IMG/VR virus record: IMGVR_UViG_3300023296_000646
Span: 30,981-94,980 of that record
Source: a virus
DNA: 64,000 nucleotides
Strand: one strand, 5' to 3'
Numbering within the stretch: the stretch's first letter is position 1; each line of letters opens with the position of its first letter. The notes below the pieces were generated by a model, which had not been told where the DNA came from, did not search any database, and was given only the letters and a program-made list of their open reading frames with translations. Shown here piece by piece: positions 30,921 to 48,575 of the stretch. Both the position numbers and the translations under genes were made by a program.

Positions 30921-32012
30921 TTATCTCACAACCTTAAATACGTTATCTTCATCATAATAGTCTACTAGACTGTTACGCTCTATTTTAAGTACAACTCTGT
31001 AAACGCGCTCAGGCTGAAAGCCGCTAAACCACTGATCGAAATAGCTACCATTAGAATCTATACTTAATTTTGTGTTATCGCTAAATGGTATAATAACATC
31101 CTCTGTTACTGCATCCTGAATTGAATAGTAAGATGAAGTTGGTAAGAAATTGTTTATATCGTATTGACTACCAGTAGTAAATGTTTTTGAAGGATATCTT
31201 GCCCTTGAAAAATACCGTATACGAGCTTTAGAATTTCTCTTATACTCACTACGTAAATCTTTAAGGTATACTACTCTATCAGAATCTGTTGACTCTGATA
31301 GTGATCCTGTTGACACTGAAGAGTCATCCCATGCCACTTCTAATGTTGGTGGATAAATTGTGTTCGTGTCCATTGAAAAGAACGCCAATGTTCCATAATC
31401 TTGAATGTCAGTTTCAACTGCCTCAGTATGTTTAACTATAAAACCATGATTAGGAATACTTCCACTTAACCACTGTCTCATAATTACAGAAACATCCATT
31501 CTGATATTTGAAGATTCGTTTGAAAACGATTGGGATGCAGCAGATGATGTATACCAAGTTCCCCCACCAGATCCGTCAACAGATCCACTTGTATTTGCTG
31601 CTAATGATCCAGTTGCAGTAGTTGATCCTGATACCCACAGCGATGCAGAATCTGCAGAATTTTTGTAAAGCCAAGATGCTCCAGTAGTTGTTACTCCATC
31701 ATATTTAGTACCAACTCCCATTTGCCAGCTCTGAGATACTGGATATGCGTATAGTGTATATTCCAATGGAATTTGCTTAGCATCTGCTATTGTCATATTA
31801 AGATAATATGAAGCTCCTGCTGCAATTGTACCACTGACGATAGAATTTGAAATTGGAGTGATATCGAAACTAACTAAACCTCTAGCGTTTTCTCTAAGAG
31901 TACCATTATAAAAGCTTTTTTCCACTTCTATGATTTCATCAATACCCGTATTTTGGGTCGACTGCTGCATATAAAGGGTAGTGTCTTTATTTGGAAAAAT
32001 GAAATGATGCAT
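30921..32012 (-). CDS. Beta-rich tail/baseplate structural protein
   Basis: 363 residues; the N-terminus HHFIFPNKDTTLYMQQ resembles the start of DNRLRE-type cell-surface-like domains also used in virion proteins. Ser/Gly linkers follow, then an aromatic C-terminus. It overlaps the gp6-like gene by one base (coupled translation). Confidence 0.55.
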   Translation of the reverse strand: MHHFIFPNKDTTLYMQQSTQNTGIDEIIEVEKSFYNGTLRENARGLVSFDITPISNSIVSGTIAAGASYYLNMTIADAKQIPLEYTLYAYPVSQSWQMGVGTKYDGVTTTGASWLYKNSADSASLWVSGSTTATGSLAANTSGSVDGSGGGTWYTSSAASQSFSNESSNIRMDVSVIMRQWLSGSIPNHGFIVKHTEAVETDIQDYGTLAFFSMDTNTIYPPTLEVAWDDSSVSTGSLSESTDSDRVVYLKDLRSEYKRNSKARIRYFSRARYPSKTFTTGSQYDINNFLPTSSYYSIQDAVTEDVIIPFSDNTKLSIDSNGSYFDQWFSGFQPERVYRVVLKIERNSLVDYYDEDNVFKVVR

Positions 32013-38943: not shown

Positions 38944-38974
38944 ATTGTACGGTAAGTTAAAAAATAATTAATCG

Positions 38975-39336
38975 TGGAGATGCCGGGAGTCGAACCCGGG
39001 TGTTACATTGTTTCAATACAAAGTCGTTCACGTGTGTAGGTAATTTCTTTCCAATTTCCAAAGTCACATTGAATTTTGCGTTATGCAATGTTTAACGAAA
39101 CAAGTTTTTCAGTTCTACATATTTCTTAGAACATGGTTTGTAAAAGTCTTTGATTAAGACCCCAAGTTAGCTTACGCTAATACTTCTTCTACAGGAGTCC
39201 CAACGAGTGCCATGGCATCTTCGAAGGTAAAGTCAGAAAGTGATTCTGCATTTATTTGTTTTTTGATGTTTAAGACCTTTCTAGTCTACACGCACTTCAT
39301 ACCGCTCCAACATAGTCGAATACCAAGTACATCCCC
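38975..39336 (-). ncRNA. ssrA: Phage-encoded transfer-messenger RNA (tmRNA)
   Basis: Rescues ribosomes stalled on broken mRNA and tags the product for proteolysis. The 5' end GGGGATG pairs over 7 bp with CATCTCC at the 3' end; a T-arm GGGTTCGACTCCC and a D-arm-like GTATTCGAC are present. CCA is not encoded (ACGA follows). The resume frame starts at GCA 39249 and runs 25 codons to TAA 39172-39174, giving a tag that begins AESLSDFTFED and ends PVEEVLA. Length (about 362 nt) is typical. A perfect promoter element ends 9 nt before the 5' end. Confidence 0.93.
39172..39249 (-). other. tmRNA tag-peptide reading frame
   Basis: 25 codons from the GCA resume codon to TAA. Its length is above the usual 8-12 residues, and it ends -EEVLA instead of the common -ALAA. 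The other two frames give TGA or a tag without a hydrophobic end. Confidence 0.8.
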
Positions 39337-47656: not shown

Positions 47657-47928
47657 TAGACGTTTACCTTTTCGATGTTTGCTTCATATAATTCTTGACG
47701 TTTTGCCCATTCCTTTCTACGTTCAATCACCTTAGGTGAAATCGTATAGTAGTAATGGTAACATCTGTTGATCCAATCTATATGGTGTTGTTTTGCTGTA
47801 CCAGTTAGCAATTGAGTTTCAATCTGAGAGATATGGTGCAATTTGTATCGTGTGATTTTAACATTACCCCAAACTTCATCACCACCATTTCTATACCACG
47901 CTCTTACTGCATCTATTTTATTTTTCAT
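47656..47928 (-). CDS. Hypothetical protein, 90 residues
   Basis: Basic, aromatic-rich helical protein (YHYYYTISPKVIERRKEWAKR). Overlaps the PTH2-like gene by 4 nt, so the two are co-translated. No family recognised. Confidence 0.5.
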   Translation of the reverse strand: MKNKIDAVRAWYRNGGDEVWGNVKITRYKLHHISQIETQLLTGTAKQHHIDWINRCYHYYYTISPKVIERRKEWAKRQELYEANIEKVNV

Positions 47929-48281
47929 TTTGTGTACCTGTCATTTTGATTACCGTTTTTTAATGTGAGAGGAAGGTTCGATGTGTATTTATCGATACCT
48001 TCCCCAATTGCTGCTACAGAACATAATTCACCATCTAAATCTGGCTCATAAAATCCAGTGACTGATATGTCATCGTCTTCACATAACTGTCTTAGTAGTT
48101 TATCTAACCTTATTTCATTTCGTGCGCTTAAACATACTATCGTATTGTTCTTCCACGTATTAAATAAAAATGGATATCGAATAGCGAACTCTGCAACTCC
48201 GTGTGCAGTTTGTGCTACCTGATATCCATCTGGCAAATCTCTTCTAGTAATTACGTAAAATCTTTCTTGTGTCTATGTCAT
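47925..48281 (-). CDS. PTH2-like peptidyl-tRNA hydrolase family protein with in-frame amber at codon 3
   Basis: Family members act on peptidyl-tRNA. The AGGA ribosome site (8 nt) and ATG 48281 give ATG ACA TAG ACA CAA GAA, then codons 6-14 RFYVITRRD, LPDGYQVAQTAHGVAEFA (about 15-32) and LSARNEIRLDKLLRQL. This is the PTH2-like fold (first strand, then xxAQxxHA helix), and ending GFYEPDLDGELCSVAAIGEG fits too. No ATG/GTG/TTG occurs between the TAG and TTG 48236, which would cut off the first beta-strand. Thus full-length protein needs readthrough of the TAG at 48273-48275. 118 sense codons. Confidence 0.7.
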
Positions 48282-48298
48282 TGTATTATTCCTATTGC

Positions 48299-48433
48299 TT
48301 ATAAAATTAGAACTATAAATATTATAGTACCTATTGCTATGCATGAATTGTAAATCCATTTTCTAAGATTTCCAGTTTCTAGATCTAAAAAGATCCAGTA
48401 TCCTAGCTATCCTAATTCTTCTTTACTTTTCAT
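48299..48433 (-). CDS. Small membrane protein with in-frame amber at codon 9
   Basis: From ATG 48433, which lies 4 nt after the tRNA discriminator base: MKSKEELG, TAG (48407-48409), LGYWIFLDLETGNLRKWIYN, then SCIAIGTIIFIVLIL and TAA. A C-terminal transmembrane helix follows a polar segment, so the frame reads as one protein. No start codon directly follows the TAG. It is translated only if the amber is read through; otherwise an 8-residue peptide. Sits between the suppressor tRNA and the PTH2-like gene, 17 nt before the latter's start. Confidence 0.6.
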
Positions 48434-48437
48434 ATCG

Positions 48438-48508
48438 TGCTCGTACAGAGACTTGAACTCTGATCCAACGCTTTAGAGGCGCATGCTCTACCATTGAGCT
48501 ATACGAGC
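48438..48508 (-). tRNA. Amber suppressor-type tRNA, anticodon CUA
   Basis: 71-nt cloverleaf: acceptor GCTCGTA/TACGAGC (7 bp), D-stem GCTC/GAGC with loop AATGGTA, anticodon loop CTCTAAA, T-stem CAGAG/CTCTG with loop TTCAAGT, variable loop GGAT, discriminator A. CCA not encoded (CGA follows). U33 and A37 are in place, so positions 34-36 are CTA and read UAG; shifting the loop by one would put C at 33 and break a stem pair. The anticodon stem has a T-T mismatch at 27:43 and G-T at 28:42. 3:70 is not G-U, so alanyl identity is not expected; the charged amino acid is unknown. Confidence 0.85.
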
Positions 48509-48509
48509 T

Positions 48510-48560
48510 TATAGATACGTAGTACTATTAAACGATTTAATTGTTTAATACGTATCTATA
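48510..48560 (-). promoter_or_regulatory. Long inverted repeat abutting the suppressor tRNA
   Basis: TATAGATACGTA (48510-48521) and TACGTATCTATA (48549-48560) pair perfectly; an inner TTAAAC/GTTTAA pair extends the stem. It ends one base before the tRNA 5' end and 15 nt after the vWA stop. No U-tract, so it may be a processing signal or weak terminator. Confidence 0.5.
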
Positions 48561-48575
48561 TTTGCTAATCAAATA

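Follow-up and report, generated by a model that had tools for sequence, protein, structure and literature searches.

The 64,000-nucleotide stretch analysed here (positions 30,981 to 94,980 of IMG/VR record IMGVR_UViG_3300023296_000646; hereafter the window) belongs to a phage record of 94,980 bases and contains a PTH2-like gene that begins 156 nucleotides downstream of a tRNA with a CUA anticodon, all features of the locus being on the minus strand. We propose that these constitute an amber-locked module, in which a gene for a PTH2-fold protein carries an early UAG that is read by the phage's own CUA tRNA, and we place the probability of this reading at about 0.8. Comparison with related genes shows a shared ATG start, a conserved early TAG, recurrent linkage to CUA tRNAs and no genome-wide reassignment of TAG; that the tRNA is charged and would read the UAG of the PTH2-like gene is what we infer. 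Many unrelated phages share this arrangement, which points to a natural lock and key by which one gene module is switched on.

The PTH2-like gene and the CUA tRNA

The PTH2-like gene (48281-47925) is an open reading frame of 118 codons plus a TAA stop and opens with ATG-ACA-TAG. The ATG lies at 48281-48279 and the in-frame TAG, conserved in relatives, at codon 3 (48273-48275), after which the frame is open up to the TAA at 47925. The first ATG, GTG or TTG past the TAG is a TTG at codon 16 (48234-48236). In an AlphaFold2 model made with the TAG entered as Gln (mean predicted local distance difference test score, pLDDT, 90.3), beta-strand 1 spans residues 8-13, between the TAG at residue 3 and the TTG, and a start at the TTG would delete it. 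The whole fold is therefore predicted to arise only via TAG readthrough, and the claim of an earlier note on this DNA, that no later start keeps this protein whole, is borne out by the sequence together with the placement of this strand.

PHROG families 1866 and 3668 (phrog_1866, phrog_3668) match the protein, the former from residue 6 of the searched stretch. A Foldseek search against the PDB returned seven matches with E < 0.001, led by solved PTH2 structures (2zv3, 3erj and 1q7s included), and the significant matches are PTH2-fold structures only; a profile search also retrieves solved PTH2 chains. Pfam PTH2 (PF01981) does not match the window protein itself; for alignable relatives of the same family the scores are 30.4 and 36.1 bits, the cut-off being 23. 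On the basis of the model, the window protein is predicted to have the PTH2 fold.

The tRNA (48437-48508) was called by ARAGORN with anticodon CTA and scores 67.1 bits against Rfam RF00005, confirming the amber-suppressor-type tRNA described from the sequence in the earlier note. Its RF00005 alignment and predicted fold show a cloverleaf with an ordinary D-arm and T-arm, it has A73 with the CCA not encoded, and it is the sole tRNA of the whole 94,980-base record. The exact pattern of this tRNA was matched nowhere else in our scan, single-protein pattern scans of IMG/VR with the window PTH2 and a VWA-like gene gave zero relatives, and no bacterial relative came out of a genome-contig scan. Among terminase relatives (mostly 50-58% identity) we found no PTH2 or CUA tRNA comparable in synteny.

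Recurrence of the early TAG and its linkage to CUA tRNAs

Homologues were first found in phages by tblastn, and three IMG/VR scans then gave 90 distinct sequences. For each of these we walked upstream from beta-strand 1 as far as the first in-frame stop, whichever of the three it was, accepting ATG, GTG or TTG as starts. Frames without a start were found for 54 of the 90 IMG/VR homologues; 53 of these are blocked by TAG and one by TGA. Counted over 87 distinct PTH2-like phage homologues, 53 carry the TAG between codons 3 and 9. The same walk applied to terminases of related phages found a start codon in 48/48, and no excess of TAG blocking was seen among other, non-PTH2 frames in the PTH2 loci. 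The TAG is at codon 3 in 27, codon 4 in 16, codon 5 in seven and codon 9 in two of 52 homologues, and an alternative start between the TAG and the domain is almost never present. The homologues found by tblastn begin ATG AAA TAG (pT24), ATG AAC AAT TAG (LR745206), ATG ACA TAG (LR756504), ATG TCG TAG (LR756501) and ATG AAG TAG (LR756500). A second in-frame TAG within the PTH2 domain occurs in L158, L212 and LR756501 (L118).

Relatives with a sense codon at the TAG position, which the earlier note had proposed to look for, do exist: they encode Thr or Ala at this position and begin at the identical ATG. For example, ATG GCG TAG ATT AAA GAA GGC GAT at locus L157 aligns with ATG GCC ACC ATC AAA GAG GGT GAC at its sense relative L218. 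This codon-by-codon alignment indicates that the TAG occupies a Thr/Ala position and that the preceding ATG is therefore the start of the family. A purine-rich Shine-Dalgarno-like core precedes the family ATG at 20 of 50 loci by a simple test; in XacN1 the sequence is AGAGGATTAATACC-ATG, with a Shine-Dalgarno-like AGAGGA before ATG AAG TAG. Homologues that start downstream of the TAG, which the earlier note held would speak against gating, are not the general case, but in mycobacteriophages a GTG follows the TAG directly. These (A/G)TG TAG GTG loci were scored as sense-start because the GTG is usable as a start. In the cluster C mycobacteriophages L121, L122, L154 and L155 the PTH2 start is ATG TAG GTG or GTG TAG GTG, and a CUA tRNA lies just downstream. 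On an 89-row tree the TAG/sense state requires seven changes on the best tree, at least three of them forced by well-supported branches; the deep forks are not resolved, because the protein is short.

At 42 of 53 TAG loci there is a CUA tRNA no farther than about 6 kb away, versus 9 of 34 sense-start loci (Fisher p 1.5e-6). With a structural finder we obtained 36 matches in TAG loci, zero in 1.74 Mb of terminase loci and zero in 2.9 Mb of shuffles, and the CUA tRNA is on the PTH2 strand in 33/34. The CUA tRNA sequences at these loci are many and unrelated, which argues against plain co-inheritance of one tRNA as the source of the linkage. ARAGORN missed eight of the 42, which are atypical, several having an extended region between the acceptor and the D-like stem. 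These tRNA-like genes with an extended 5' domain are at L173, L175, L179, L180, L182, L183, L184 and L188, often with a CTTAA motif before the D-like stem, and the tRNA at L189 is nearly without a D-arm. A further, degenerate tRNA-like stretch is present just upstream in L161, L163, L169 and L191, and L167, a TAG locus with no local CUA tRNA, has one 128 kb away in its record.

Sense-start PTH2 phages of high GC content have one or two nearby tRNAs, mostly with an anticodon loop of eight nucleotides (AUUUCAAC or ACUUCAAA, UUCA) that looks suited to reading UGA plus one base (L218, L219, L221, L229, L230, L231, L233, L236, L239, L241, L243, L244, L247, L249 and L253). We considered a fusion of PTH2 to the upstream gene by a +1 frameshift at TGAR at these loci but rejected it, since the shift enters the wrong frame. 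In the Lak phage Lak-B7 (L117, near 925), ATG AAT ATC TAA precedes PTH2 and a UUA-anticodon tRNA is nearby, so that stop and anticodon match, but the in-frame ATG that comes next makes this no more than suggestive.

Cultured phages and an HD-like partner

A search of isolates with the XacN1 protein as query returned eight that, with pT24 and XacN1 themselves, make ten with an early TAG: Stenotrophomonas RAS14, Acinetobacter ME3, Erwinia Kaldavass, Xanthomonas XbC2, Pectobacterium CBB, Serratia BF, Cronobacter GAP32 and Salmonella Arash. The ATG AAA TAG of pT24 is accompanied by a tRNA-Sup, and ME3 has a CUA tRNA annotated just upstream. A tRNA of Arash annotated as Phe (L314:3816-3890) is read as CUA by ARAGORN. 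Gene callers cut or split such genes, as in pT24, XacN1, GAP32, CBB and BF.

In many phages PTH2 is fused to, or lies next to, a gene carrying HD-type motifs, which were recognised by eye; a Pfam search of this partner gave no HD match. In five Mimas/Eneladusvirus-type phages the HD-like gene (L310, L311, L312 and L315 from ~2815; L313 from 2920) has an in-frame TAG at codon 47, within ELDTG-TAG-GDP or -GDS, and the deposited annotations split the HD-like and PTH2 genes. The separate HD-like gene of LR745206 begins ATG AAT ACT TAG, with the TAG at codon 4. In XacN1 the domain order is swapped, with the HD-like domain first and PTH2 second, and the start is still ATG AAG TAG, which suggests that the lock follows the module and not one protein end.

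Suppressor tRNAs are frequent in phages, and where the code is not reassigned they are not known to have targets. The authors of the XacN1 genome reported one PTH and, in each terminal repeat, two CUA tRNA genes; they looked for target genes and could not identify any (PMC5852040). To this we add a second PTH2-like gene, ORF364, with ATG AAG TAG upstream of its annotated start (L307:236-244; XacN1 243735-243743) and a Shine-Dalgarno-like site, so that the ORF364 start is probably misannotated. A conserved, dedicated target in cultured phages makes the question of suppressor-tRNA targets directly testable. In RaK2, all four PTH2 matches have a start codon and the lock is absent; its authors list no suppressor tRNA (PMC3622015).

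Gating, purpose and alternatives

With an in-frame UAG just after the start, ribosomes would stop after two residues unless the CUA tRNA reads the UAG, and the hydrolase would be made only when suppression is active and in proportion to it; production solely after the tRNA accumulates is plausible. The earlier note had proposed gating of two proteins, and recurrence in very divergent phages strongly supports this for the PTH2-like protein, but not for the second, a 44-codon frame described below.

Several observations weigh against this reading. No CUA tRNA was detected in the locus for 11 of the 53 TAG loci, although four of them (L161, L163, L186 and L191) have a stretch resembling a tRNA just upstream. 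Suppressor-like tRNAs also adjoin some sense-start PTH2 genes (CUA, UUA, UCA or UUCA), and the linkage may thus have a second cause. The homologous genes are related, so the counts are not independent. The base right after the TAG is a purine in 52/52, but the codon there is mostly Ile or Val, and the purine context may reflect protein conservation. Finally, the conserved Gln and His of PTH2 are retained in the window protein, but a Tyr (PGYQ) is at the position of the Lys before the conserved Gln; we take this Lys to be a catalytic residue, and hydrolase activity is therefore not assured.

As to purpose, we favour, with less certainty than the lock itself, a matching of PTH2 dose to suppression, or feedback between the two. 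The presence of suppressor-like tRNAs beside unlocked PTH2 genes leads us to think that PTH2 may deal with peptidyl-tRNAs arising from suppression. PTH2, with its HD-domain-like partner in many phages, would clear or recycle these, those on the suppressor tRNA included, and the amber codon in the hydrolase gene would match dose to suppression, possibly with negative feedback. A more specific form is a natural homeostat, in which the PTH2-like protein would destroy or recycle suppressor tRNA in its peptidyl or aminoacyl form, while only that tRNA could read the protein's own gene. We advance this tentatively, as possible rather than probable; if true, the phage would hold stop-codon readthrough at a set level by a circuit that has either been conserved or has arisen anew with many unrelated tRNAs.

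The main alternative for the purpose, which leaves the lock in place, is a coherent feed-forward delay or guard against leak, in which the tRNA holds back a hydrolase that would be toxic or of no use early on, with no feedback on the tRNA. We regard this as a serious contender, a little short of even odds. It requires no substrate relation, and a synthetic circuit of this design, with a nonsense codon in the target and a cognate suppressor tRNA, cuts leak in Escherichia coli (PMC7969014); that circuit is engineered, whereas the phage module is natural and recurrent and would, if our reading is correct, be the natural counterpart of such a switch. The suppressor-like tRNAs beside unlocked genes weigh against it and suggest a functional relation beyond gating.

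An unlikely explanation of the TAG itself is that ATG-x-TAG is a leader minigene of two to four codons, with reinitiation at AUU or another weak start, acting as an attenuator instead of being read through. ATT, a rare but real start, follows the TAG in 32 of 52 homologues, and the mycobacteriophages have their usable GTG, but ACC, AAT, GTA, AAC and GGC follow at other loci, sense relatives continue straight across the TAG position, and the TAG at codon 47 of the HD-like gene falls inside a conserved domain. A leader would account neither for the choice of TAG alone nor for the CUA tRNAs.

More improbable still is general reassignment of TAG (code 15), with PTH2 happening to use the codon. Lak phages, which are known recoders, fall within the family, and TAG is seldom used as a stop in some loci. 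However, open-frame coverage is hardly altered when TAG is treated as sense, in the window phage both the terminase gene and a dUTPase-like gene terminate with TAG, and TAG blocking was not seen in excess among non-PTH2 frames of the PTH2 loci. TAG is not reassigned genome-wide, nor is it in frame in many genes as in code 15. A chance nonsense mutation in a pseudogene, or a sequencing error, can be dismissed: the window has one assembly and no second contig covering the site was found, but the early TAG position is common to at least 53 homologues and ten isolates, the remaining frame is intact, and the stop is TAG in 53/54.

The amber lock resembles several known systems. As in crAss-like and Lak phages with code 15 (PMC9523058, PMC10879173), a phage CUA tRNA would read UAG as sense, although there TAG is reassigned in many genes, and here a single module contains it, TAG remaining a stop elsewhere. 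Autoregulation of prfB, which encodes RF2 (PMC12421855), likewise has an early in-frame stop in a translation-factor gene and can couple dose to translation state, but by a programmed frameshift, which is absent here, where a dedicated tRNA is encoded nearby instead. Pyrrolysine decoding by tRNA-Pyl also dedicates a CUA tRNA to a few genes while TAG still acts as a stop elsewhere; however, most of the phage CUA tRNAs here have ordinary cloverleafs, and the ARAGORN Pyl label rests on the anticodon only. The protein family of the window gene is also that of the PTH2 described in jumbo phages (PMC7824862) and in the tRNA arrays of mycobacteriophages (PMC5966550); the portions of these two papers searched do not mention suppressor tRNAs, and PMC5966550 had noticed the link between PTH2 and tRNA arrays for cluster C. 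A literature search, with preprints and most subscription journals outside its reach, found no report of an amber lock of this kind.

The 44-codon frame (48299-48433) has its ATG at 48433-48431, a TAG at codon 9 (48409-48407), as the earlier note described, and its stop at 48301-48299. It is weak as a gene because no homologue was found in a search for one and its ATG is only 3-4 nucleotides past the tRNA 3' end, where a ribosome-binding site cannot fit, and it was rejected as a target of the tRNA. Directly before the tRNA, between it and the VWA-like gene, is a strong hairpin (48509-48562; fold -14.9 kcal/mol, z -4.85), which may be a terminator or a signal for processing. A transfer-messenger RNA (tmRNA) is also encoded by the window phage, at 38972-39336, and by a relative (G024).
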